From Arachnia propionica (GTDB lineage: Bacteria > Actinomycetota > Actinomycetes > Propionibacteriales > Propionibacteriaceae), in assembly GCF_003932785.1 (NCBI RefSeq), contig NZ_RQYT01000019.1, positions 1 through 48,582 of the forward strand: a stretch of DNA of 48,582 nt. The letters are read 5' to 3'. Positions 29,093 to 42,792 of this stretch are shown one piece after another. The notes beneath the pieces were generated by a model, which did no database searches, had not been told where the DNA came from, and saw only the letters and a list, made by a program, of their open reading frames with translations. The number at the start of each line of letters is the position of its first letter. Position 1 is the first letter of the stretch. The position numbers and the translations under genes are program-made.

Positions 29093-29491
29093 ATGGGCGA
29101 CTGCCTGTTCTGCCGGATCGTCGAGGGAGAGATCCCCTCACGACGGGTCTACGAGGACGACACGGTCATCGCCTTTCTCGACATCAACCCGTGGCAGCTC
29201 GGCCACACCCTGGTGATCCCGCGCCGCCACGTCGTCGACGCCCTCGCCGACGGGAGCGCGCTCGCGGAGGTCGCGCCCGCCGTGCACACGGTGGGCAATC
29301 TGCTCAAGGAGAGGCTGGGCGCGAGCGCCTGCAACATCCTCAGCAACGCGGGCGCGGACTCGGGGCAGGAGGTCTTCCACCTCCACGTCCATGTGTTGCC
29401 GCGCTACCCCGACAACCCGGGGATCGGGAACATGAGAGGGAGCATCGACGAGGACCTCGACAGCGTCCACGCCAGGATCCTCGGGCGATGA
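29093..29491 (+). CDS. HIT-family hydrolase
   Basis: The 132-residue product is a histidine-triad nucleotide hydrolase of the HINT type: CLFCRIVEGEIPSRRVYED at the start and the triad HLHVHVLPRY near the C-terminus. Such enzymes remove groups from adenosine 5'-phosphoramidates. ATG 29093 lies 1 bp after the hisF stop with GGGAGG upstream. It overlaps the next gene by ATGA. Confidence 0.93.
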   Translation: MGDCLFCRIVEGEIPSRRVYEDDTVIAFLDINPWQLGHTLVIPRRHVVDALADGSALAEVAPAVHTVGNLLKERLGASACNILSNAGADSGQEVFHLHVHVLPRYPDNPGIGNMRGSIDEDLDSVHARILGR

Positions 29492-31557
29492 GTGAGGAGC
29501 TGTGGCGGATCAACACCGCCACGATCCGTCGCCGTGCCGCCGTGTTCCTGCCCGGGTGGGGTGCCGGGGCGGGTGTGGCCGACCCGGCGCGGGTGAACGC
29601 TGCCCTCGCCGCACTGAGGGAACTCGGCTACCGGCTGGACGACCGGGCCAGGGAGGAACTCACCTCGGCCGACCACGCCTGGGTCCTGGTGCAGGCAGCG
29701 GCCACCCTCAAGGGGGCGGACGTCACCCATCGGCCGTTCTACCCGGACTTCCCCGAGCAGGTGCGTGAGGCCTCGGCCTTCACCCTCCACCTCAATGCCA
29801 TGCTCCACTACCTGGGGGATGTCACGGGGCGACGGTGGGTTCCCCGATTCATCCCGAGGACCCGCGAGCCCTTGACGGATGCGCCCGCGGACACGGTGCT
29901 GACCCTGATCCGGGAGCACGAACTGCGGGACCTCGTTCTTGGGATCATGACCCAGGGGCAGCCCTTCAGCCAGGCGGATCGCGCCGACATCGCGGCCCTC
30001 AGGGAGTTCGCGCCCGGCACCGCGCCGCGCGTCGAGGTGCGGGAGAACCTGGCGTGGCTCGCGGTCGCCTTCCCGGGGCTGGACTTCTCGGCCTCGATCG
30101 GGACGGCCACCGATGTGCTGCGCCTGGCGGTGGCGATGAGTGGCGGAGACGTGTCGTTGGCCACTCCGACGCGGTTTCGCACCTTCACGCGACGGGAACG
30201 ACGGCGGCTGCTGGCCCTGCTGGAGGAGCACGGCCGGGCCGAGGACCTGCATCGCTGGGAGGAGCGGTGGAAGCGCCTGACCCGGCACCTGCGTCCCGGT
30301 GACCACGCGGCTCGGTTCCCCAGGGCCGCGGCGATGCTGCACGGGTTGTCCAATGGCACCCTGCCGCGCAGCTTCGAGTCCCACCTGGAGGAGATCCTGG
30401 CCCGCGGCGACGTCCCGGCCGCCCTCAACCTGCTGTGCGACCGCCCCGGGGTCCTCGCGCGACGTCTCGCCCACCTCATCCGGCTGTGCAACGAGAACGC
30501 GGCCCTCGAGGTGCAGGTGGCGACCACCTTCTCCTGGGTCGCGGGGCAGGTGTCGACGCCGGTGTTGGCCCAGCTGTGGCAGTACTTCGCGTCCCCTGAC
30601 GCCACGGTGCTGCCGGAACGGGTGGTGACCATCAAGGCGGGCACGGATCAGCGCTCCCACATCATCCCGAATCGGCGGAACCGACGCGGGGTGGATCAAC
30701 TCCTTCTCGAGACGATCGAGGATGGATTGCGCGCTCGGGCCCGGTTGGGGAGGGTGTGGCTCAACCGCGACCTCTTCTCCCAGTACGCCGTGCCGCTGGG
30801 GCACCGCTCCGCCTCCCCGGGCCTGCGCAGCGCCGGCCGGGGGTCGCGGCTGCGATTCCCCGAGGGCAGGGTGGTGCGTTTCTTCATGCACTGGCGTGAC
30901 CTCGAGCAGGGGGCGAGGAAACGGGTGGACCTGGACCTGTCCGCCTTCTGCATCACTGCGGACTTCCGGCAGACCCAGGAGATCGCCTACTACGAGCTCA
31001 GGGCTCCCGGTGTCACCCACTCCGGCGACATCACCTCGGCCCCGCAGGGGGCCGCCGAGTTCATCGACCTCGACCCCGAGACCCTGCGGGGCAGGGGGTG
31101 GCGCTACGTCGTCATGACCGTCCACTCCTTCACGGGGCAGTCCCTGGCCGTGGTGCCGGAGGCGTGGGCGGGCGTGATGCGTCGCGACGGTCTCACCGGG
31201 GAGCTCTTCGAGCCCAGCACCGTGGATCTTCGGCTGGATCTCACCTCGACGGGACGCAACGCCACCCCCATGGTCCTCGACCTGGAGACCCGGGAGGTGA
31301 TCTGGTGGGATCACAACGCCGGGGTCACCGCGGGCTCGTTGTACAACCTCGACGCCAACGCCACCCGCACCCTCATCCATCTCCAGCACGCGGTGCTGAG
31401 CCGACCCCTCACCCTCGACCGCCTCATCACACTGCTCGCCGAGGAGGTGGTCGACGACCGGCGCAGCGCGGACCTGGTCTTCGACGACCCCGCCGTCACG
31501 CGGCGGGCGATCGCGCCGTGGGACAGCGACCGCATCCTGCAGCTGCTGACGGGATAG
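29488..31557 (+). CDS. Large TerD-like domain protein
   Basis: The 689-residue protein has a C-terminal region (about 470-640) that looks like the TerD fold: RVDLDLSAFCITADF, QEIAYYEL, GDITSAPQGAAEFIDLDPETL and YVVMTVHSFTGQSL. The acidic calcium-binding loop of classical TerD is weak. The first 470 residues are mostly helical. The layout recalls the MXAN_6230/SCO0854-type TerD fusions, but I see no Cys/His RING cluster; this comparison is from memory. No tellurite gene lies nearby. ATG 29488 overlaps the HIT stop. Function is unknown, perhaps a stress role. Confidence 0.7.
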   Translation: MSEELWRINTATIRRRAAVFLPGWGAGAGVADPARVNAALAALRELGYRLDDRAREELTSADHAWVLVQAAATLKGADVTHRPFYPDFPEQVREASAFTLHLNAMLHYLGDVTGRRWVPRFIPRTREPLTDAPADTVLTLIREHELRDLVLGIMTQGQPFSQADRADIAALREFAPGTAPRVEVRENLAWLAVAFPGLDFSASIGTATDVLRLAVAMSGGDVSLATPTRFRTFTRRERRRLLALLEEHGRAEDLHRWEERWKRLTRHLRPGDHAARFPRAAAMLHGLSNGTLPRSFESHLEEILARGDVPAALNLLCDRPGVLARRLAHLIRLCNENAALEVQVATTFSWVAGQVSTPVLAQLWQYFASPDATVLPERVVTIKAGTDQRSHIIPNRRNRRGVDQLLLETIEDGLRARARLGRVWLNRDLFSQYAVPLGHRSASPGLRSAGRGSRLRFPEGRVVRFFMHWRDLEQGARKRVDLDLSAFCITADFRQTQEIAYYELRAPGVTHSGDITSAPQGAAEFIDLDPETLRGRGWRYVVMTVHSFTGQSLAVVPEAWAGVMRRDGLTGELFEPSTVDLRLDLTSTGRNATPMVLDLETREVIWWDHNAGVTAGSLYNLDANATRTLIHLQHAVLSRPLTLDRLITLLAEEVVDDRRSADLVFDDPAVTRRAIAPWDSDRILQLLTG

Positions 31558-31611: not shown

Positions 31612-31644
31612 AACCCTCGCGTCCACGCCTTCCGGGCCCATGGG

Positions 31645-31676
31645 TGGGGGTCGGCGCGCGTCGGTCCCCACCCCCA
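31645..31676. other. Hairpin without T run
   Basis: TGGGGGT (31645-31651) pairs with ACCCCCA (31670-31676), and partial pairing continues inside. Five A follow rather than T, so it is not a normal intrinsic terminator for the plus strand, though it may still stall transcription between the TerD-like gene and the glycan operon. Confidence 0.4.
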
Positions 31677-31795: not shown

Positions 31796-33016
31796 ATGTC
31801 GAAGACCACGCGAGTGCTGCTGTACAGCCATGACTCCCAGGGGCTCGGTCATGCCCGCCGCAACCTCGCCATCGCGCATGCGCTGGCCAAGCATCTTCCC
31901 GAGGCCACCGGCACCGAGGTGGCCGGGCTCATCGTCTCCGGCCTGCCCCGCAGCTCCGAGTTCCCCCTGCCCCCCGGGTTCGACTGGATCACCATCCCCG
32001 GCATCTCCAAGGGCAGCAGCGGCTACCAGCCCCGGTCGCTGAGCGGCGACTTCAAGTCCGTCGTGAAGCTCCGCTCCTCCCTCCTGGAGGCGGCGTTGCT
32101 CGGCTTCGAGCCCGACCTCGTGATCGTCGACCGCCACATCCTCGGCGTCGCCGAGGAACTGCGCGGCCCGCTCATGCAGCTGCGCAAGCACCACCCGAGC
32201 ACGCGCATCGTCCTCGGGCTGCGCGAGATCCTCGACGAGCCGGAGGTGGCCGCCAAGGAGTGGACCAAGCTGGGCGATCCCGAGCGGCTGCTCGAGTTCA
32301 TCGACGAGGTGTGGGTCTACGGCGACCCCGAGGTGCACAACCCCTTCGCCACCGGCGAGATCCCGGCCGCCCTGGCCGGTCGCGCCCGGTTCACCGGCTT
32401 CCTCGCCAAGGACCGCCCCGCCGCCCACGAGGACGGCGAACTCTGCAACGGCCCCTTCGTCCTCACCACAGTGGGCGGTGGCTCCGACGGCGGCGACATC
32501 CTGCGGGCAGCGGTCGGGATGACCCCGCCCCAGGGACACGAGCACATCGTCATCACCGGCCCCCAGCTGAGCGACGACGAGTTCGACGCGGTCCGCGCCC
32601 TCGCCCCCGAGGGCACCCACGTGCTGCGCAGCTGGCCGGGCCTGGCCCAGCAGATCGGCAACGCCGCCGCGGTGATCTCCATGGCGGGCTACAACACCAC
32701 CTGCGAGATCCTCGCCACGCAGACCCCGGCGCTGCTCATCCCCCGTGAGGTGCCCCGCCAGGAGCAGCTCATCCGGGCCCGCGCCCTCGGCCGCATCGAC
32801 GCCGTCGACCACCTCCGCTGGAACGACGTCACCGCCGAGGCGCTCTCCGAGTGGGCGGCCACCGCCGTCACCGGCCGCGTGGACCGCGACCGCGTCGACA
32901 TCGACGGCCTCGCCACGGTGCCGCGCTTCGCCGCCGACATCCTCGCCAGCATGGAGGAGCTGTTCGCCGCCCTCGACGCCTCCGATCTCGTCGACGATCT
33001 GGTGGGTGTGGCATGA
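31796..33016 (+). CDS. MurG-like glycosyltransferase
   Basis: The 406-residue product has a GT-B fold of the MurG/GT28 kind. LLYSHDSQGLGHARRNLAIAH holds the GxGHxRR acceptor loop, and TVGGGSDGGD and SMAGYNTTCEILA form the nucleotide-sugar site. No membrane helix is present, so it works in the cytoplasm. I chose ATG 31796 because GAGGGGG lies 8 nt upstream and the earlier ATG 31745 falls inside the leader hairpin. It is the first gene of the seven-gene overlapped operon. Donor and acceptor are unknown. Confidence 0.85.
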   Translation: MSKTTRVLLYSHDSQGLGHARRNLAIAHALAKHLPEATGTEVAGLIVSGLPRSSEFPLPPGFDWITIPGISKGSSGYQPRSLSGDFKSVVKLRSSLLEAALLGFEPDLVIVDRHILGVAEELRGPLMQLRKHHPSTRIVLGLREILDEPEVAAKEWTKLGDPERLLEFIDEVWVYGDPEVHNPFATGEIPAALAGRARFTGFLAKDRPAAHEDGELCNGPFVLTTVGGGSDGGDILRAAVGMTPPQGHEHIVITGPQLSDDEFDAVRALAPEGTHVLRSWPGLAQQIGNAAAVISMAGYNTTCEILATQTPALLIPREVPRQEQLIRARALGRIDAVDHLRWNDVTAEALSEWAATAVTGRVDRDRVDIDGLATVPRFAADILASMEELFAALDASDLVDDLVGVA

Positions 33017-34218
33017 ATCGCATCGGATACGTCCTCAAGGTCTACCCCCGCTTCTCCGAGACCTTCATCGTCACCGAGATCCTCGCCCGGGAAGCGCAGG
33101 GGGAGCAGCTGAGCATCTTCGCCCTGCGCCCGACGACCGATGCGCGGTTCCACCCGGAGATCGCCCGGGTGCAGGCCCCGGTCCGGTGGGTCCCGCGCCC
33201 CATGAAGAGCACCGAGTTCTGGGAGGCGATCGCGGGCGCGCTGACCGAGTACCCGCAGTTCCAGCAGCGGTTCGCCGCGATGGTCCCCGACATCGCCGAC
33301 CTGCCGCCCTCCGAGGTGTCCCAGGGCGTCTCCCTCGCCCGGATGGCCCTCGACGAGGGGATCACCCACCTGCACGCCCACTTCGCCTCCATGGCCGGGC
33401 GCATGGCCTGGATCGCCTCCCGGCTCACGGGAATCCCCTACACGGTGACCACCCACGCCAAGGACATCTACCACGAGTCCGTGGACCAGACCTGGCTGCG
33501 TCGGGTGTGCGGCGACGCCCAGCAGGTGATCGCGATCAGCCGCTTCAACGAGCGCTTCCTGGCCGAGGCCCTGAGCGACACCGACGCCTCCATCGTGCTG
33601 CAGTACAACGCCCTCGAGATGCGACGCTTCCCGTACCGCGACCCCGCGCCGCGGGGCGAGGTGCTGCGGGTCTCCGCCGTCGGTCGACTCGTGCCCAAGA
33701 AGGGCTTCGACGTCCTCATCGACGCCGTCTCCCGGCTCGGCAACGTCCCCGTGGACGTCACCATCGCCGGCGACGGGGAGGAACGTGCCGCGCTGGAGAC
33801 CCGGATCCAGCAGGCCGGGCTCGCCGACCGGATCCGACTCGTCGGCCCGAAGACCCAGGGCGAGGTCATCGACCTCGTGCGCGACTCCGACATCTTCGTC
33901 GCACCCTGCGTCCCGGCAGACGACGGCAACATCGACGGTCTTCCCACCGTCGTCCTCGAGGCCATGGCCCTCGGCACCCCGGTGCTCGCGACCTCGGTCA
34001 GCGGTCTTCCCGAGGTCGTCAGGCACATGGAGACCGGGCTGTTGGTGCAGCCCGGGGACGCCGATGCGTTGGCCGAGGCCCTCGCCGACGTCGCTGACAG
34101 CCGCGTGCCCCTGGCCACGCTGACCCGCAATGCCCGCAGCCTCATCGAGGAACAGTTCGACAGTCGTCGGCAGGCCGCACGTCTGTCCGGTCTCCAGAGC
34201 AAGGAGGGGGACCGTTGA
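33013..34218 (+). CDS. Glycosyltransferase family 4 (WcaL-like)
   Basis: The 401-residue product is a retaining GT-B glycosyltransferase. IGYVLKVYPRFSETFIVTEI resembles WcaL/AmsK exopolysaccharide enzymes. The middle VGRLVPKKGFDVLIDA, GDGEERAALE and the E-x7-E motif in PTVVLEAMALGTPVLATSVS are intact. Overlap with the first glycosyltransferase is ATGA (33013-33016). It probably adds a sugar to a lipid-linked or secreted glycan in the cytoplasm. Confidence 0.88.
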   Translation: MNRIGYVLKVYPRFSETFIVTEILAREAQGEQLSIFALRPTTDARFHPEIARVQAPVRWVPRPMKSTEFWEAIAGALTEYPQFQQRFAAMVPDIADLPPSEVSQGVSLARMALDEGITHLHAHFASMAGRMAWIASRLTGIPYTVTTHAKDIYHESVDQTWLRRVCGDAQQVIAISRFNERFLAEALSDTDASIVLQYNALEMRRFPYRDPAPRGEVLRVSAVGRLVPKKGFDVLIDAVSRLGNVPVDVTIAGDGEERAALETRIQQAGLADRIRLVGPKTQGEVIDLVRDSDIFVAPCVPADDGNIDGLPTVVLEAMALGTPVLATSVSGLPEVVRHMETGLLVQPGDADALAEALADVADSRVPLATLTRNARSLIEEQFDSRRQAARLSGLQSKEGDR

Positions 34219-35333
34219 TGCGCGTCGCCTATGTCAGCGTCGATCCCGGGATCCCCGTCTTCGGCACCAAGGGGGCCTCCGTCCACGTCCAGGAGGTCGT
34301 GCGTGAACTCCTCGCGCGAGGATGCACCGTCACCGTTTACACCACCCGGCGCGGCCGGGAGGTCCCGGCCGATCTCGCCGACCTGCAGGTCGTGGAGTTC
34401 CCCCTCGACGCCAAGGAACCCGCAGCCAGGGAACAGGCGCAGATCGAGGCCTCCCGCAGCATCACCGAGCGGATTCGGCAGGATGGCGCCGACCTCGTCT
34501 ACGAGCGGTACTCCCTGTTCAGCTCCGTCATCGCGGATCTGGCCGACATCCCCGGCATCCTGGAGGTCAACGCCCCCCTCATCGAGGAACAGCAGCAGCA
34601 CCGTCACCTCGTCGACGAGGAGGCGGCCGAGCGGGCCCTCACCCGCCAGGCCACCGTGGCCCGGGCCGTCATCTGCGTCTCCGACCCGGTGCGCTCCTGG
34701 GTCCTGGGCCGGGTGCCCGCCGCGAGGGCCCACACCGTTCCCAACGGGGTCAGCCTGAGTCGCATCCGGCCCCAGGCCGAGGCCGACGGGGATCCCGTGG
34801 TCACCTTCGTCGGGACCCTCAAGCCATGGCACGGGGTCGCCGACCTCGTCCGGGCCGCCGCACACGCCAGCCAGACCTGGCAGCTGCGGATCATCGGTGA
34901 CGGTCCGGAGCGAGAGGCCCTGGAGCGTCAGGCAGCAGAACTGGGTGTCAAGGTCGATTTCCGCGGTGCCATCGCACCCAGCGAGATGCCCGACCACTTG
35001 GCTGGCTCCGCCATCGGCGTTGCCCCCTACCCCGATCTCGGCGGCAGCGACTCCCAATACTTCTCGCCCTTGAAGGTCTACGAGTACCTCGCCGCCGGGC
35101 TGCCGGTGGTTGCCTCCTCCGTCGGCCAGCTGCCCGAGATCCTGCACGACTGCGGGGTCCTGGTGCCGCCGTCCGCACCCGCAGCGTTGGCTGCTGCCGT
35201 GGACGAACTGGTCGCCGACCCGGCACGTCGCAGGGAACTGCGTGCCACGGCCCGTCGAGTGGCTGAGGAACGGCACGGCTGGGAGGCCGCGGTGTCCCGA
35301 ATCCTTGACCTCGCGGGGGTGGCCTGTGGCTGA
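34218..35333 (+). CDS. Glycosyltransferase family 4
   Basis: The 371-residue product is a second GT4-type enzyme: VSVDPGIPVFGTKGASVHVQ near the N-terminus, TFVGTLKPWHGVADLV in the middle and KVYEYLAAGLPVVASSVGQL with its E-x7-E-like motif. The start is ATG 34218, overlapping the preceding stop by one base (TGATG), with AGGAGGGGG at 34202-34210. An upstream TTG is less likely. Its stop overlaps the ABC transporter start by 8 bp. Confidence 0.88.
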   Translation: MRVAYVSVDPGIPVFGTKGASVHVQEVVRELLARGCTVTVYTTRRGREVPADLADLQVVEFPLDAKEPAAREQAQIEASRSITERIRQDGADLVYERYSLFSSVIADLADIPGILEVNAPLIEEQQQHRHLVDEEAAERALTRQATVARAVICVSDPVRSWVLGRVPAARAHTVPNGVSLSRIRPQAEADGDPVVTFVGTLKPWHGVADLVRAAAHASQTWQLRIIGDGPEREALERQAAELGVKVDFRGAIAPSEMPDHLAGSAIGVAPYPDLGGSDSQYFSPLKVYEYLAAGLPVVASSVGQLPEILHDCGVLVPPSAPAALAAAVDELVADPARRRELRATARRVAEERHGWEAAVSRILDLAGVACG

Positions 35334-37131
35334 TCCCAAACCCCAGGCATCGGCGATGCGCCGGACACTCCGCCTCGTCGGCCCCGATGTCGCACCGCAC
35401 CGATGGCTCATCGTCTCCGGGACCATCGCTCTACTGCTCGACGTCATCTTCCGCGTGCTCGAACCGTGGCCGATGAAGATCGTCATCGACGCGGTGAGCA
35501 GCTCCCTCGGAGCGGACATCTCCGGAAGGCCGGCCTCCGTCGGCCTGCTCATCACGTGTGGCGTCGCCTTGATCCTCATCGTCGCGCTGCGGGCGGCGAG
35601 CAACTACCTGGCCACCCTGTGTTTCGCGCTCATCGGGGCGCGTGCCGCCACGACGCTGCGGGCTCGCGCATTCCGCCACGTCCAGACCCTCTCCCTGCAA
35701 TTCCACGCCCGCAACCGCAGCGCCGACACCGTGCAGCGCCTCGTCAGCGACGTGGCTCGGATGCAGGAGGTCGCCACCACCGCGGGGCTCCCGCTGCTGG
35801 CCAACGTCGTGACCCTGCTCGTCATGGTCGTCATCATGTTCGTGCTCGACCCGTTGCTGGCCGGGGTGGTCGTGCTCGCCATCGTGGGCTTCGCCCTGAC
35901 CTCGCGCAGGACCTCCGGCAAGATCACCTCGGCGGCCCGCCGCACCCGCAAGGGTGAGGGACAGCTCGCCAACACCGCCCAGGAGTGCCTCACGGCGATG
36001 CCGGTCGTGCAGGCCTACGGTCTGGAGAAGACCGTCGAGGGGTACTTCACCGGGGCGAACACCGTCTCCCTCAAGGAGGGCGTCCAGTCGCGACGGTTCG
36101 CCGCCCGTCTGGAACGCACGACGGATGTCATCGTCGGTGTGGCGACAGCCGTGGTGCTCATCGGCGGTGCCTTCCGGGTCGTCAGCGGCGACATCACCCC
36201 GGGTGATCTCGTCCTGTTCGTCAACTACCTGCGCACCGCCATGAAGCCCCTGCGTGACATGGCCAAGTACACCGGACGCATCGCTCGCGCCACTGCCTCC
36301 GGCGAGCGGGTCGCCGACCTCATTGAACTCGTCCCCGACGTGACGAGTCCCGCCAACCCGACCCCGTTGGGCCTGGTCAAGGGAGCGGTCGACTTTCAGC
36401 AGGTCCGGGCGCGCTACGACGGTCACGAGGTGCTCCACGGAGTCGACCTGTCCATCAGCCCCGGGGAACGGGTTGCGATCATCGGCCCGTCGGGATCCGG
36501 CAAGTCGACGCTGGTCTCGTTGCTGGTGCGTGCCATGGACCCGTCCGGCGGGGTGGTGCGGCTCGACGGCAAGGCGCTCACCGATCTTGATCTCGCCGAA
36601 CTGCGGGCGAACATCTCCCTGCTTCACCAGGAAGCCGTGCTCTTCACCGGCACCATTCGCTCCAACATCGAACTGGGACGCCCCGGTGCCAGCCAGGCTG
36701 AGATCGAGGCGGCGGCAATGGCAGCGAACGCCCACGACTTCATCACCCAGCTGCCCGACGGTTACGACACCGTCGTGGGGGAGCGCGGCGGCACCCTCTC
36801 CGGGGGTCAGCGCCAACGTATCGCCATCGCCCGGGCCCTCATGCGCGGGTCCCGGCTCGTCCTCCTGGACGAGGCCACCACCGGGCTCGACCCGGAGGGT
36901 GCGGCCCTCGTCCTGGACGCCATCGACCGTCTCGCGGCGGGGCGGACCACCCTCGCGATCACGCACGACGCCCAGGTGGTGCTGCGCGCCAGCCGTGTGG
37001 TGTGGATCGAGCGCGGAGTGATCCGCATGGACGGCTCCCCGCAGGACCTGCTCGCCACCAGTCCCGTGTTCCGGTCCTGGATCGAGGCGAGTGGTCGGGA
37101 CGCTGACTCCGTCACGATGGGGGATGCGTGA
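35326..37131 (+). CDS. ABC exporter, fused membrane and ATPase domains
   Basis: The 601-residue half-transporter has six membrane helices (about 25-310) and an ATP-binding domain with Walker A GPSGSGKSTL, Q-loop LLHQEAVLF, signature LSGGQRQRIAIARALM, Walker B LVLLDEAT and the H-loop in AITHDAQ. It probably works as a homodimer exporting a lipid or glycan precursor. The GTG start at 35326 is an inference from overlap with the previous gene. The stop overlaps the next ATG by one base. Confidence 0.9.
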   Translation: MADPKPQASAMRRTLRLVGPDVAPHRWLIVSGTIALLLDVIFRVLEPWPMKIVIDAVSSSLGADISGRPASVGLLITCGVALILIVALRAASNYLATLCFALIGARAATTLRARAFRHVQTLSLQFHARNRSADTVQRLVSDVARMQEVATTAGLPLLANVVTLLVMVVIMFVLDPLLAGVVVLAIVGFALTSRRTSGKITSAARRTRKGEGQLANTAQECLTAMPVVQAYGLEKTVEGYFTGANTVSLKEGVQSRRFAARLERTTDVIVGVATAVVLIGGAFRVVSGDITPGDLVLFVNYLRTAMKPLRDMAKYTGRIARATASGERVADLIELVPDVTSPANPTPLGLVKGAVDFQQVRARYDGHEVLHGVDLSISPGERVAIIGPSGSGKSTLVSLLVRAMDPSGGVVRLDGKALTDLDLAELRANISLLHQEAVLFTGTIRSNIELGRPGASQAEIEAAAMAANAHDFITQLPDGYDTVVGERGGTLSGGQRQRIAIARALMRGSRLVLLDEATTGLDPEGAALVLDAIDRLAAGRTTLAITHDAQVVLRASRVVWIERGVIRMDGSPQDLLATSPVFRSWIEASGRDADSVTMGDA

Positions 37132-38252
37132 TGGACCGACAGCTGAGTGACCTGCTCGAGCGGATCCTCGACCCGTCGTGGCTGAGCGAACACGCGGGAC
37201 GCGACGTCCGGGCGGCACGGGTGCGGATCAAACCGTCGACGTCGCTGGGCATCGCCCTGGCGGACGGTGCCTCGGGACGCAGCATCGGATGGATGCGTGT
37301 GTTGTGGCCCGTCAACCACGGCAAGGCCGAGGCTGCCGTCCGGGATGCGGCTCGGCACGGCCAGACGGTGGAGGTGAGGGATCTCGGGGAGGGGCTGCTC
37401 TCCGTCACCGGGCCGGTGATGGCCGATCCGAAGCTCTGGCGGCACCTGCGGGACGCCACCCGCGCCGGGCTGCTCGGTGGCTGGGCCTCGGAGGACCTGC
37501 TCCGCTACAACCCGCTGCGGCGGGTCGTCATTCGTGACGCGGACCGGGTCGTGCGTGTCGTGGCCGGGGGGTCACGCGACGACCACGAGATCCAGGACCT
37601 CGTGGCGGGGATCGTGCCCTGCCCCGAGCGACTCGATGATGGCTCCGTGCCGGGCTGCTCGGTGCACCACTTTACCGGGGAGGGGGACCTTGAAGGGTTC
37701 CCGAGTGCGATGGGTGCGGAGGCGGCCGGGGAACTCGTCGCCCGTCTCCACGCCGCGCCGCTCCCGAGCGGGCCGATGCGGGGCCTGCTGGACAGGCGGA
37801 ACTCTGATCCGGTCCGGCAGGCCCACCGCCACGCCGCACTGCTCGACCACGTGGCCCCGGAACTGGCCGTCCCGGTTCGGGAGGCCGCGGCACGGCTGAC
37901 CCTCGGCGATCCCACGACACCCGTGCTGTGCCACGGCGACCTCTCCCCGGACCAGGTGCTCACTGTCGCCGACGGGTCGAGGGTCTGGCTCACGGACTTC
38001 GATCGTGCCCAGTCGGGGGCACCGTCGCAGGACCTCGGTTCCTTCATCGCGGAGGCGAGTCCCGAGCTGGCCGAGGCCTTCATGGCCGGGTACGCGGCGG
38101 CCGGCGGCGCAGTCCCGGAGCGGGAGGAACTGGCGCTGCACGTGGCCGCGTCCCGGATGCATCGCCTGATGGACCCGCTGCGAAGGGCCTGCCCCGACTG
38201 GCGGATCCAGGTGGGGGAGCGGCTGGCCCTCCTGGAAGGGACGCTGCCGTGA
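37131..38252 (+). CDS. Aminoglycoside-phosphotransferase-fold protein 1
   Basis: The 373-residue product belongs to the APH/choline-kinase fold. LCHGDLSPDQVL (His 268, Asp 270) is the catalytic loop, with Gln where Asn is usual, and WLTDFDRAQ is the metal-binding DFD motif. The N-terminal 200 residues are variable. It may phosphorylate a sugar, amino sugar or polyol made by the cluster; antibiotic resistance is not implied. The start at ATG 37131 overlaps the transporter stop by one base (TGATG). Confidence 0.8.
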   Translation: MDRQLSDLLERILDPSWLSEHAGRDVRAARVRIKPSTSLGIALADGASGRSIGWMRVLWPVNHGKAEAAVRDAARHGQTVEVRDLGEGLLSVTGPVMADPKLWRHLRDATRAGLLGGWASEDLLRYNPLRRVVIRDADRVVRVVAGGSRDDHEIQDLVAGIVPCPERLDDGSVPGCSVHHFTGEGDLEGFPSAMGAEAAGELVARLHAAPLPSGPMRGLLDRRNSDPVRQAHRHAALLDHVAPELAVPVREAAARLTLGDPTTPVLCHGDLSPDQVLTVADGSRVWLTDFDRAQSGAPSQDLGSFIAEASPELAEAFMAGYAAAGGAVPEREELALHVAASRMHRLMDPLRRACPDWRIQVGERLALLEGTLP

Positions 38253-39265
38253 CGGATCTGCGAGAGCTGTGGGAACGCTCTGGGGTGACCCGGGTGTGGC
38301 CGGGGAAGAAGGGCACCCTCGCCTTCGAGTGGGTGGACGACCAGGGGCGGCTCCGCGCGGGGAGCGCGTCCGCCTCCGGAGTCACGATCCTCGACCATGG
38401 CACGGACCCCGCCCTGCCGGGGCTCTCCCCGGATCGACCCGGCACCATCGTCGTGCACCGTTACGGTCGGCGAGCTGTCGCCGTGACCCGCGACACCGTC
38501 ACGAAGTACACCCGTGCCGGTCAAGCGGCCCCCGTGGTCCATGGTTCCCGCCGTTTCGCGGAGCTGTGCTCCCGTGCAGGGATCGCGACCCCCGAGGTGC
38601 TGAGCCACGATGACGCGAGGATCGAGTTCGCCAAGGCCCCGGGTGCGAGCCTGCACGACCTCGGCGATGCCGGTGTCGAGGGTTGGCGACGCTTCGTCGA
38701 GGCCTGGCCGGCCATGGCCGGTGGGGAGGCGGACCTGCCCACTCACTCGGCCGATGACGAGGCTGCGACCCTCGCGCGGTGGCACGGTCTGGCCCTCGAA
38801 CACGGCGCGATCCCTCGGAATGCGGCCCTCGACCGGGCCGTCGAGGAGGTGTGTGCGGACCTGTCGGGTCATGACGATGGTCCCATCGGTGTCATCCACC
38901 GCGACCTCCACGACAAGCAACTGCTGTGGGACGGCGAGCGCCTGACGCTGCTGGACCTCGACCTGGGCTCCAGGGGCGAGATCGCCCAGGACCTCGGCAA
39001 CGCCCTTGCCCACGCGGAGGTGCGAGGTCGTCAGGGCGTGCTCTCCGTCGAGGGGGTGACTCGGATGGTGGACCTCCTCGCTGGGGCCGTCCCCGCCCTC
39101 GAGGTGAACCCGGCCCGCGTGGTGCTCCACCGCCGGGCAGCCCGTCTGCGCATCGGCTTCGTTCATGCTTTCCGGCCAGCCGATCAGAGCTGGCTCCTAC
39201 CCTGGCTGGAGGAGTGCGCTGCCAGGACTCATCATCACGACACGTTGGAAAGGACCTTGTCATGA
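38249..39265 (+). CDS. Aminoglycoside-phosphotransferase-fold protein 2
   Basis: The 338-residue product is a second APH-fold kinase: VIHRDLHDKQLLW (His 217, Asp 219, Gln in place of Asn) and LLDLDLGSRG give the catalytic and metal motifs. It is divergent from the first one, so not a recent duplicate. The start GTG 38249 overlaps the preceding stop by 4 bp. Both may act in sequence or form a heterodimer; substrates are unknown. Confidence 0.8.
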   Translation: MTDLRELWERSGVTRVWPGKKGTLAFEWVDDQGRLRAGSASASGVTILDHGTDPALPGLSPDRPGTIVVHRYGRRAVAVTRDTVTKYTRAGQAAPVVHGSRRFAELCSRAGIATPEVLSHDDARIEFAKAPGASLHDLGDAGVEGWRRFVEAWPAMAGGEADLPTHSADDEAATLARWHGLALEHGAIPRNAALDRAVEEVCADLSGHDDGPIGVIHRDLHDKQLLWDGERLTLLDLDLGSRGEIAQDLGNALAHAEVRGRQGVLSVEGVTRMVDLLAGAVPALEVNPARVVLHRRAARLRIGFVHAFRPADQSWLLPWLEECAARTHHHDTLERTLS

Positions 39266-40572
39266 GGATCTCAGTCATTGGATGCGGTTACCTCGGTGCG
39301 GTTCACGCCGCCTGCATGGCCAGCCTGGGCCACGACGTCCTCGGAGTGGACGTCGACGAGGGGCGGATCTCCGCGTTGCAGCAGCATCGTCCCCCGTTCT
39401 ACGAGCCGGGGTTCGACAGCCTGCTGACCGAGGCTGCGGCGACGGGACGGCTGCGGTTCACCACCGAGCCCGATCCGGAGGAACTCGCCGCGGTTGATGT
39501 GCACTTCATCGCTGTGGGTACCCCGCAGGGCCCCACGGGTGCCGCCGATCTCAGCTACGTGGAGTCCGCCGTCGCCTCCCTCCTGCCGGTGCTGGAACGG
39601 CGTCCCGGCGCGCTGGTGGTGGGCAAGTCCACCGTGCCCGTCGGTACGGCAGCGGCTCTGGCGGAACGCATCGAAGCCGCGGGTGGGCTCCTGCTGTGGA
39701 ATCCCGAGTTCCTGCGGGAGGGATTCGCGATCGAGGACACACTGCGCCCCGACCGGATCGTCTATGGCGTGAGCCCCGATCCTGACAAGGCGAGGGAGAG
39801 CCAGCGACTCCTCGACGAGGTCTACGCGAGTCTGCTCGCCGATGGAATCCCGCGCCTGGTCACCGACTACGCCACCGCAGAGCTCGTCAAGGTTGCTGCG
39901 AACTCGTTCCTGGCCACCAAGATCAGTTTCATCAACGCCATGGCTGAGGTCTGTGAGGTCACGGGTGGCGACGTGACGGCCCTCGCGGAGGCGATCGGCC
40001 ACGATGTACGGATCGGCAACCGATTCCTGCAGGCCGGGGTCGGATTCGGTGGCGGCTGCCTGCCGAAGGACATCCGCGCCTTCATGGCCCGGGGTGAGGA
40101 ACTCGGCGTCACCGGGTTGGCGTTCCTCAAGGAGGTCGACCGGATCAACCAGGCCCGACGTGACCGGGTCGTGGAGTTGGCCACCCACAGCCTGGGTGAC
40201 GGGATGAGTGGTGCCAACATCGCGGTGCTGGGAGCCGCCTTCAAGCCTCGAAGCGACGACATCAGGGACTCACCTGCCCTGGAGATCGCGGCGCGGTTGC
40301 AGCAGGCAGGGGCCCACGTCACCGTGACTGACCCGAAGGCTCTCGACGCGGTTCGGGCACGGCATCCTGAGCTGCACGCCGTCGATGATGTCAACGAGGC
40401 CCTCCGGGATGCCGACCTGGTGCTCGTGCTCACCGAATGGGCGGAGTTCCGGACCCTGGATCCCTCGCAGCTCAATCAGGTACGACGCAAGGTGGTCATC
40501 GACGGTCGCAACTGTCTCGACCCGGTGCTCTGGCGTGAGGCCGGGTGGGAGTACACGGGTCTCGGGCGCTGA
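39262..40572 (+). CDS. UDP-glucose 6-dehydrogenase
   Basis: The 436-residue enzyme oxidises UDP-glucose to UDP-glucuronate with NAD. The Rossmann motif is ISVIGCGYLGAVHA, the catalytic Cys 266 lies in GFGGGCLPKD, and NPEFLREG and GAAFKPRSDDIRDSP are family motifs. The related enzyme UDP-ManNAc dehydrogenase is a less likely alternative. It supplies a uronic-acid donor for the upstream glycosyltransferases. ATGA overlap joins it to kinase 2, and it is the last gene of the operon. Confidence 0.93.
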   Translation: MRISVIGCGYLGAVHAACMASLGHDVLGVDVDEGRISALQQHRPPFYEPGFDSLLTEAAATGRLRFTTEPDPEELAAVDVHFIAVGTPQGPTGAADLSYVESAVASLLPVLERRPGALVVGKSTVPVGTAAALAERIEAAGGLLLWNPEFLREGFAIEDTLRPDRIVYGVSPDPDKARESQRLLDEVYASLLADGIPRLVTDYATAELVKVAANSFLATKISFINAMAEVCEVTGGDVTALAEAIGHDVRIGNRFLQAGVGFGGGCLPKDIRAFMARGEELGVTGLAFLKEVDRINQARRDRVVELATHSLGDGMSGANIAVLGAAFKPRSDDIRDSPALEIAARLQQAGAHVTVTDPKALDAVRARHPELHAVDDVNEALRDADLVLVLTEWAEFRTLDPSQLNQVRRKVVIDGRNCLDPVLWREAGWEYTGLGR

Positions 40573-40670: not shown

Positions 40671-42158
40671 ATGAGACGGGTCGTGGGTTTCCTGATGGGT
40701 GCGATTCGGGTCAGGATCATGCTGGCCGTGGTCCTCGTGTCCGGATGCGCCCTCGCCCTGTCCGGGCTCATCGTCCACTCGCTCCAGCAACGGCACGCGG
40801 AGGACGACGCCACGCGGCAGTTGCAGCGGGTACGGGCACGACTTGAACTGGAGGTGACGCAGGCGGATCCCGGCACCGGAGCGCCGTTCGCCTCGGTCAA
40901 GGACGTGCTGGGCTACCACCTGAGCCGGAGTGTCCTGAGCCCGCCCGCCGGGGAGCTGGCCTTCGTGGGGGATCGCATCAACTGGATCCAGCAAGCCCCG
41001 GTCCGGGTACGACCGGAAGCGGACCCCGAACTCATGGCGGCTGTGCGCCCCCACCTCTCAGGGCGGGAGAGTCTCATCCAGACCATCACCACCAGCCTCA
41101 CCACCTATCGGACGCTGGTGGTCCCGATCCGAGTGGGGGATGAGGTGGGGGCGCTCGTCCATGTCATCGACATGAGGCGTGCAACCGCGGAGTTGAAGAG
41201 CACGATGGAGCAGTACACCGTGGTGGCCGTGGCGACGGTCCTCGCCCTCATCGTGCCAGCGTGGCTCGCCATGGGCAGGTTGCTACGGCCGATCGGGGAA
41301 CTCCGACGGGCCACGGATGCCATCGACGAGCACGACCTGACGACGAGGGTGCCGAGCCGGGGCCGCGACGACCTGTCCGCCCTCGCCCGTGCCGTGAACC
41401 GCATGCTCGATCGGGTCCAGGCCACGGTCGAGGCGCACCGGCGGCTGCTCGACGACGTCAGCCATGAGTTGCGCACCCCCATCACCATCGTGCGGGGGCA
41501 CCTGGAGTTGCTCGACGTCAACGACCCGGAGGACGTCGCGGAGACCCGGGAGGTGTCGATCGACGAGCTGGACCGGATGGGCGTCCTCGTCCAGGACCTG
41601 CTCGTGCTCGCCAAGGCGAACCAGGCTGATTTCATCAATCCCGAGTCGACGGAGCTCGCGGAGTTGACCCTTCAGGTACTGGCCAAGGCCCGTGGCCTCG
41701 GGGAGCGGGGATGGATCCTGGAGGACCTCGCCGAGGGGTCGGCGTGGCTCGACCCGGCGCGCATCACCCAGGCTTGGCTGCAGCTGGCCGCCAACGCGGT
41801 GAAGTACTCCTCGCCGGGCAGCGTCATCGGGATCGGGAGCATGATCTGCAACGGGCAGGTGCTCTTCTACGTCCGCGACGAGGGCATCGGGATGACTCCC
41901 GAGGAGATGGCCACCGTCCATGAGCGCTCGGTCCGTGGCCAGTCGGCTGCCCACTTCGCCAGCGGGCTGGGGCTCGGGCTCAGTATTGTGACGAGTATCG
42001 CCGAGGCACACGGCGGTAGGCTGGAGATCGAGTCCGAGGAGGGACAGGGCTCCCTTTTCACGCTGTGGCTACCCTTGACGCCCCAGGAGGCCTCGCGAGA
42101 GATGACGCGCTGGAAGGGGGAGGACAAGCATGAGCAGCATCCTCATCATCGAGGATGA
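40671..42158 (+). CDS. Sensor histidine kinase with extracellular domain
   Basis: The 495-residue kinase has two membrane helices (about 12-35 and 182-205), a 145-residue extracellular region, a HAMP domain (RLLRPIGELRRATDAIDEHDL), phosphoacceptor His 265 in DVSHELRTP, and an ATPase domain (N-box LAANAVKYSS, DEGIGM, GLGLGLSIV). It pairs with the regulator encoded downstream, overlapping by 29 bp. It resembles MprB/TcrY-type kinases, but the signal is not evident. The 98 bp between it and the UDP-glucose dehydrogenase gene hold its promoter. Confidence 0.9.
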   Translation: MRRVVGFLMGAIRVRIMLAVVLVSGCALALSGLIVHSLQQRHAEDDATRQLQRVRARLELEVTQADPGTGAPFASVKDVLGYHLSRSVLSPPAGELAFVGDRINWIQQAPVRVRPEADPELMAAVRPHLSGRESLIQTITTSLTTYRTLVVPIRVGDEVGALVHVIDMRRATAELKSTMEQYTVVAVATVLALIVPAWLAMGRLLRPIGELRRATDAIDEHDLTTRVPSRGRDDLSALARAVNRMLDRVQATVEAHRRLLDDVSHELRTPITIVRGHLELLDVNDPEDVAETREVSIDELDRMGVLVQDLLVLAKANQADFINPESTELAELTLQVLAKARGLGERGWILEDLAEGSAWLDPARITQAWLQLAANAVKYSSPGSVIGIGSMICNGQVLFYVRDEGIGMTPEEMATVHERSVRGQSAAHFASGLGLGLSIVTSIAEAHGGRLEIESEEGQGSLFTLWLPLTPQEASREMTRWKGEDKHEQHPHHRG

Positions 42159-42792
42159 ACCGAGGATCGCCGGATTCATCGCGAAGGGGCTGAAGTCGGC
42201 GGGCTTCACATCCGAGACAACCGGGACGGGCAGGGCCGGGGTGGAGCTGGCCTCCCAGGGCAGGTTTGCCCTCGTGATCCTCGATGTCGGTCTCCCGGAC
42301 ATGGACGGGTTCCAGGTGCTGGAGGAGATGAGGGGGCGCGGCGTCGACGTCCCGGTCATCGTCCTCACCGCCAGGTCCTCCGTCGCCGACCGGGTCACCG
42401 GGCTCGAGAGCGGGGCCGATGACTACATGGCCAAGCCGTTCGCGTTCGAGGAGTTGCTGGCCCGGGTGCGGTTGAGGCTGCGCCCCGGGGCCGAACGTTC
42501 GCAGGGCCCCAACGAGATCAGCCATCGTGGTCTCACCCTCGACTACCGCAGTCGCCGGGCACGCGTGGACGGTGTCTGGGTGGATCTGTCGGCTCGAGAG
42601 TTCACGATGGCCGAGGTGTTCCTGCGCAACCCGGGACAGGTCCTGAGCCGGGAGCAACTCCTCAGTCTCGTCTGGGGCCTGGACTTCGACCCCGGGACGA
42701 ACGTCGTCGGGGTCTACGTGTCCTACCTTCGCAACAAGCTGGGCAAGGATCGGTTCGAGACCGTCCGGGGCATGGGCTACCGCCTCGTCTGA
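42130..42792 (+). CDS. OmpR-family response regulator
   Basis: The 220-residue product has a receiver domain (SSILIIEDEPRIAG, phosphoacceptor Asp near 52 in VILDVGLPDMDG, Lys in YMAKPFAFEE) and a winged-helix output domain (LSAREFTMAEVFLRNPGQ, VSYLRNKLG, GMGYRLV). It overlaps the kinase gene, so they form one operon. GGGGGAGG precedes ATG 42130. It may regulate surface or glycan genes, which is only a guess from position. Confidence 0.92.
   Translation: MSSILIIEDEPRIAGFIAKGLKSAGFTSETTGTGRAGVELASQGRFALVILDVGLPDMDGFQVLEEMRGRGVDVPVIVLTARSSVADRVTGLESGADDYMAKPFAFEELLARVRLRLRPGAERSQGPNEISHRGLTLDYRSRRARVDGVWVDLSAREFTMAEVFLRNPGQVLSREQLLSLVWGLDFDPGTNVVGVYVSYLRNKLGKDRFETVRGMGYRLV

Follow-up and report, generated by a model that had tools for sequence, protein, structure and literature searches.

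A conserved six-gene module with a predicted role in glycan assembly, phosphorylation and export in Arachnia propionica and other bacteria

Two described systems are among the closest to a run of overlapping genes that we analysed in Arachnia propionica, on positions 1 to 48,582 of contig NZ_RQYT01000019.1 (assembly GCF_003932785.1; this whole stretch of 48,582 nucleotides is referred to below as the window). In Sinorhizobium meliloti, the msbA2 operon (SMb21188-21191) combines glycosyltransferases with one MsbA-type exporter and is activated by the ExoS/ChvI two-component system; the accessible parts of the two reports propose that it makes and exports an unknown polysaccharide (PMC3687685, PMC12239276). 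Its first gene encodes a putative acyltransferase, unlike the genes studied here, according to the available text of PMC3687685. In Escherichia coli O9a, the kinase WbdD adds phosphate to the terminus of a glycan carried on polyprenol, within an ABC-transporter pathway; as far as the consulted part of its description extends, this is a kinase-fold enzyme acting on a membrane-linked glycan built by transferases of the cytoplasmic membrane, and its chain also carries a methyltransferase and a coiled coil (PMC3482155). Its sequence match to one of the kinases studied here was weak (g6, E 0.069). The transporter of the WbdD pathway is of the two-protein Wzm/Wzt type, and ABC capsule and O-antigen systems of this type have separate membrane and ATPase proteins, whereas the A. 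propionica exporter is one chain. Both systems are thus precedents, not strict relatives, of the locus described below.

The A. propionica genes encode three glycosyltransferases (g1 to g3), an exporter (g4), two kinases (g5 and g6) and a dehydrogenase (g7). Comparison across genomes established that the unit is a six-gene core, consisting of a GT28-like and two GT4 transferases, an MsbA-type exporter and two APH-fold kinases, with the dehydrogenase as an optional addition. Membership in the S. meliloti msbA2 operon was rejected, as the exporter alone was similar (256.8 bits with the g4 model) and no match to g1-g3 or to the kinases was found in the 16-kb region. An S. medicae locus first taken for msbA2 was dropped, as it has relatives of g1 and g2 but an exporter of another kind. 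The parts of a Wzx/Wzy locus (polymerase, flippase and initiating transferase) had no Pfam match among the seven proteins and did not recur beside the block; by its own content, the cluster is therefore not a Wzx/Wzy locus, in agreement with a first-pass annotation of the window, which had set it apart from standard capsule clusters. The exporter remained below the equivalog cut-offs for the lipid A exporter MsbA (342.7 of 602) and for PglK (138.1 of 1000), and the teichuronic acid models for TuaC (100.4 of 550), TuaD (344.8 of 700) and TuaH (52.9 of 550) were not reached either. No core protein passed an NCBIfam equivalog cut-off among the matches listed (the best 25 for g2 and g4). An anti-phage defence system was also considered and rejected, the PADLOC result comprising three matches to the ATPase region of g4 and none for the other six proteins. 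No description of the module was found in literature searches, which reached few subscription papers; within that literature, the statement of the first-pass annotation that no named pathway has this gene set still holds.

The six-gene core and its distribution

The seven genes lie on the plus strand at 31796..40572, each junction overlapping by 1-8 bp, as had been annotated. The first, g1 (31796..33016), encodes a GT28/MurG-like glycosyltransferase of 406 amino acids (PF04101, 33.9 bits), whose relatives share the same start methionine. It is followed by two GT4 glycosyltransferases, g2 (33013..34218; 401 amino acids; PF00534, 124.8 bits) and g3 (34218..35333; 371 amino acids; PF13692, 94.8 bits); the g2 protein scored 165.9 bits with the EpsE model, short of its cut-off of 400, and none of the three transferases has membrane spans. 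The 601-amino-acid product of g4 (35326..37131) carries a membrane domain (PF00664, 122 bits) and an ATPase (PF00005, 117 bits) on one chain, and is thus an ABC half-exporter of the MsbA type as defined by ABC_membrane plus ABC_tran, with 373 bits against the MsbA_rel model (cut-off 780, not reached). The genes g5 (37131..38252; 373 amino acids; PF01636, 59.2 bits) and g6 (38249..39265; 338 amino acids) encode APH-fold kinases with the catalytic loops HGDLSPDQ and HRDLHDKQ, respectively. The last gene, g7 (39262..40572), encodes a member of the UDP-glucose dehydrogenase family (TIGR03026, 406.7 bits, above the cut-off).

The conservation of this arrangement was evaluated in several samples. 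At the level of the order Propionibacteriales, 33 of 196 genomes (the A. propionica genome included) matched g6, and the regions located in this way were read in 20 of the 32 other genomes, the remaining 12 scoring no more than 27.8 bits. The genes g1-g6 formed one block in 17 of these 20 regions, that is, in every region that had g1; the other three (L055, L056 and L058) were without the module and had a weak g6-like gene only. In the genus itself, g1 was found in 10 of 20 genomes, and all 10 carried the whole block. When named genomes were scanned using a profile of g1, 519 relatives were confirmed, and the best 80 of them were read, so this sample leans towards close relatives; g1-g6 stood together in 67 of the 80. 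Among the 13 incomplete named loci, eight end within 300 bases of a contig end and two (L135 and L137) within 620, two from Arthrobacter have no detected g5, and one from a metagenome-assembled genome (MAG) of Desulfovibrio (L129) has g1-g2 only. The genera bearing the module include Arachnia, Actinomyces, Rothia, Schaalia, Gleimia, Kocuria, Arthrobacter, Cryobacterium, Microbacterium, Brevibacterium, Brachybacterium, Janibacter and Serinicoccus. The distribution is patchy, since g1 was present in only 18 of the 396 genomes of a phylum-wide sample; 15 of the 17 other g1-bearing genomes were read, and seven of these regions had all six genes. In two loci (L165 and L166) the g6-type kinase is placed ahead of g4, and three Arthrobacter loci have two tandem g6-type kinases each (L094 16796-18933, L101 16916-19047 and L123 10573-12695). 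The possibility that the genes are unlinked in relatives, named by the first-pass annotation as grounds for giving up its reading, was thus not borne out either in the 17 Propionibacteriales regions or in the genus. Its proposal of one functional unit stood for the six genes and failed for the seven, g7 standing beside the block in only part of the loci.

The module was also found outside Actinomycetota. A g1 match was detected in 26 of 145 cyanobacterial genomes, 13 of them with at least 384 bits. Fourteen cyanobacterial regions were read, and in 12, all with a strong g1, the order g1-g2-g3-g4 was followed by one kinase (nine regions) or two (three regions); the thirteenth strong g1 (L137) heads a g1-g4 run whose contig ends 619 bases further on. 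The loop form HRDFY is present in all nine single kinases, and four of the nine score higher with the g5 model than with the g6 model; on the loop motif, we read them as g6 type. Two regions with a g1 match near 300 bits (L196 and L197) belong to another cluster and were excluded from the census. This second cyanobacterial cluster has two or three tandem g1 paralogues (L196 2675-7929, L197 7053-14361 and L187 1129-5440); an exporter is encoded nearby in L187 and L197, and a UDP-glucose dehydrogenase in L196. Of 274 plasmid records matching g1, seven alphaproteobacterial regions were read; g1-g4 with two kinase domains occurred in two, from Paracoccus aestuarii, where both kinase domains lie in one protein of 740 amino acids, and Pseudorhodobacter turbinis. 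The remaining five have g1-g2 only, within another kind of cluster. One such cluster (L198 9947-16144, L201 8649-19160, L204 9953-16016 and L205 9947-16364) contains g1-like and GT4 transferases, a histidine phosphatase, another transferase and a polysaccharide deacetylase, with an ABC importer nearby. That cluster resembles the module in that a g1 homologue is followed by a g2 homologue, but it differs in its third transferase, the absence of an annotated kinase, the adjoining importer and, where seen, an exporter of approximately 1,020-1,050 amino acids. In a 'Phycisphaerales' MAG, g1-g3 with the start of g4 are on one contig (L135) and g4 with two kinases on another (L171); a planctomycete module is not claimed, because a binning error is possible.

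Single-frame fusions were found among the 117 loci at four of the five core junctions: g1::g2 in two, g2::g3 in six, g4::g5 in three and g5::g6 in eight, with no g3::g4 fusion seen. (The identical loci L039/L059 and L051/L108 count once per sample and twice within the 117.) Several fusions share a genus (Kocuria, Serinicoccus and Brachybacterium), and frame errors in draft genomes may account for some. Through the g4::g5 fusions the kinases are tied to the exporter, and through the g5::g6 fusions one kinase is tied to the other. The pairwise protein distances of the six genes were correlated over 88 loci (r 0.72-0.89, against a permuted maximum of no more than 0.18 in 200 permutations each), which fits shared host history as well as joint transfer. 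L043 and L044, in which genes are fused, were left out of alignment A1; split hits were the reason for omitting L057 from A1 and L041 from alignment A3. In a FastTree phylogeny of g1-g4 (112 loci, midpoint root), the cyanobacterial rows did not form one clade and bacterial orders were intermixed. The window grouped with Arachnia, Actinomyces, Rothia, Schaalia and Gleimia, in a clade that comprised 27 loci and had a support of 1.0. The locus of Tessaracoccus rhinocerotis (L108) was placed beside that of Sediminivirga with a support of 0.77, surrounded by Brevibacterium and Brachybacterium. This mixing of orders in the tree points to transfer of the block between orders as a unit.

Catalytic residues of the two kinases

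Both kinases have an HxD catalytic loop, a metal ligand, a DxD motif and the APH fold, which for g5 was backed by a structure model with a predicted local distance difference test score (pLDDT) of 96.6 and by Foldseek and VIA matches. Four residues were invariant in 54 of 54 g5 and 55 of 55 g6 sequences, namely the catalytic-loop His, Asp and Gln and the metal-binding Asp that opens the DxD motif; besides the window, alignment A4 comprised 54 of 65 and alignment A5 53 of 58 eligible relatives, all from Actinomycetota. At the position that we assigned structurally to the third-strand lysine, Lys was present in 54 of 55 g6 sequences; in g5, it was Arg in 36 of 54, the window included, and Lys in 17. 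On these residues g6 looks active, and g5 probably is too, with a reservation about the Arg at the presumed lysine position.

The Gln in place of the usual Asn of the catalytic loop had been regarded as unexpected in the first-pass annotation. It is not odd, because the glucosamine kinase SjGlcNK has the loop HGDFHVGQ, in which Q305 coordinates Mg, as stated in the accessible part of its description (PMC6520443). SjGlcNK and the actinobacterial maltokinase resemble the module kinases in a kinase fold with an N-terminal cap and in Gln as a Mg ligand in the catalytic loop (PMC6520443). Neither enzyme was among the structure matches listed, which excludes neither. Assignment of the kinases as actinobacterial glucosamine kinases was rejected, the signature Q-x(2)-RE-x(2)-YA-x(3)-LP-x-W being absent from all 109 sequences (0 of 55 and 0 of 54).

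The dehydrogenase, the two-component system and other neighbours

The dehydrogenase gene stood beside the block in 7 of the 17 Propionibacteriales loci, 22 of the best 80 of 519 named loci, 2 of 15 phylum-sample loci and none of 12 cyanobacterial loci, sometimes on the opposite strand. The A. propionica genome has three UDP-glucose dehydrogenase matches, including a copy elsewhere that is 60% identical to g7. Nine relatives whose block is without g7 were searched: in six, a close homologue that looks intact lies elsewhere in the genome (59-62% identity), G168 has a homologue in two pieces, and G089 and G014 have distant members only (no more than 34%). Since g7 is optional at the block and a second genomic copy exists, the uronic acid predicted by the first-pass annotation does not hold as a general property of the product.

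A two-component system that the first-pass annotation had missed lies directly downstream on the plus strand. It comprises a sensor histidine kinase with two membrane-like spans, HAMP, HisKA and HATPase domains (40671..42158), a probable regulator, and an OmpR-type response regulator (42130..42792; PF00072 and PF00486). In the same four samples, a homologous pair was located within 6 kb of the block in 5 of 17, 37 of 80 (again the best 80 of 519), 1 of 15 and 8 of 12 loci, counts that are low where regions were cut (in G168, locus L046, a 250-bit homologue lies approximately 4.7 kb off, beyond the stretch read). The pair occurs on either side of the block and, by annotation, also beside the Paracoccus plasmid locus. 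The background was 19 such histidine kinases above 150 bits in 20 same-genus genomes and one to three per genome in eight cyanobacterial genomes chosen for showing linkage, from which we estimate chance linkage at about 1% or less per genome. The pair is not an exclusive partner of the module: a histidine kinase scoring at least 336 bits to that of the window is encoded in 7 of the 10 genomes of the genus that have no g1, and G080, G033, G089 and G059 have g1 with the homologue unlinked.

Apart from the dehydrogenase and the two-component pair, neighbours recurred in no more than 11 of 92 loci and were ABC ATPases or genes of a housekeeping or regulatory kind. Those present in 6-11 loci encode ABC ATPases, glutamine synthetase, shikimate dehydrogenase, an aldo/keto reductase, a VTT-domain protein and regulators of the IclR and GntR types. 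Directly upstream of the block, a gene at 29488-31557 encodes a 689-amino-acid product with no Pfam match at E 0.001; it precedes the module in the nearest relative (L039) only, among 20 regions compared. Between this gene and g1 lies a 14-pair hairpin (31642..31673; three pairs are G-U by our count), a possible terminator of the upstream gene. The folding energy of this stretch is ordinary given its base composition (z -0.68); the hairpin was not called in the terminator scan, and a promoter and terminator scan of the window gave nothing above chance. No Rfam family was found in the window between 29000 and 45000.

Proposed function and alternative explanations

The reading we favour, to which we give about even chances, is that the module assembles a short glycan on a membrane acceptor, adds phosphate and exports the product; the glycoconjugate with phosphorylation and half-transporter export proposed in the first-pass annotation therefore remains the likeliest interpretation. 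Here we infer the direction of transport, the glycan as kinase substrate, the membrane acceptor, the sugars and the regulation. The MurG-like g1 protein would start or extend the glycan on its acceptor at the inner face of the membrane, and the GT4 enzymes g2 and g3 would add further sugars. Phosphorylation of the glycan, or of its acceptor, would fall to the g5 and g6 kinases, and the phosphorylated product would then be flipped outward by g4 acting as a homodimer. Where the product of a lineage includes a sugar derived from UDP-glucuronate, g7 may supply this precursor, and the adjacent two-component system may set expression by an envelope signal. The fusion of exporter and kinase (g4::g5) suggests, on gene structure, that phosphorylation is coupled to export. 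The model is supported by WbdD, which in the available text of PMC3482155 offers a precedent for phosphorylating a glycan that is exported by an ABC transporter, and by S. meliloti, a precedent for a transferase and MsbA2 operon under a two-component system in that of PMC3687685.

The kinases might instead act on free monosaccharides, in salvage for nucleotide-sugar supply, while the transferases and exporter make an unphosphorylated glycan or glycolipid. We consider this unlikely, as no nucleotidyltransferase or epimerase was among the neighbours recurring in at least 6 of 92 loci, the missing glucosamine-kinase signature also speaks against it, and the kinase::exporter and kinase::kinase fusions better fit action on an exported product. 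An ordinary exopolysaccharide or teichuronic-acid-like pathway, with its initiating transferase and polymerase elsewhere in the genome, would be in keeping with the matches of g2 to the EpsE and TuaC models and of g7 to the TuaD model, all below cut-off. Contig C98 of the same genome would fit it too: at approximately 7.7-22.6 kb, it encodes a sugar-phosphate transferase of the initiating type (191.7 bits), a protein matching Wzy_C (53.5 bits) and a distant member of the NDP-sugar dehydrogenases. However, the C98 genes sit together, look like a separate complete locus and are probably the genome's ordinary polysaccharide locus. The neighbours of the block are unrelated in most genomes, with no polymerase or flippase recurring in at least 6 of 92 loci, and to our knowledge two kinases are not part of exopolysaccharide or teichuronic-acid pathways; this explanation is distinctly improbable. 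A secreted glycoside or natural product, which the APH-fold proteins would tailor or against which they would protect the producer, is very unlikely. Most natural-product loci do not keep their order across phyla, whereas the order of these genes is kept, and no peptide, polyketide or terpene gene, or other natural-product scaffold gene, was among the neighbours recurring in at least 6 of 92 loci.

Should glycan assembly, phosphorylation and export indeed be the function of the module, a broader suggestion can be made, which we regard as tentative and doubtful. Actinomycetota, Cyanobacteria and some Alphaproteobacteria may share an undescribed pathway for an oligosaccharide glycolipid that carries phosphate, and two phosphates in loci with two kinases. 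This glycolipid would be flipped by a dedicated MsbA-type exporter, with the kinases working on or with that exporter, under an envelope-sensing two-component system. Such a product would be a functional parallel, in Gram-positives too, to the phosphorylated lipid A and core of Gram-negatives. The significance of the locus exceeds that of a seven-gene oddity, as six of the genes form a conserved module, to which the dehydrogenase and the regulator are optional additions. A six-gene set kept across two or more phyla, variously fused and often beside a sensor, should make something useful. If the proposal is true, Actinomyces, Rothia, Arachnia, Arthrobacter, Brevibacterium and cyanobacteria would have a component of the envelope that is so far uncharted, and a testable function could be assigned to two families of kinases.

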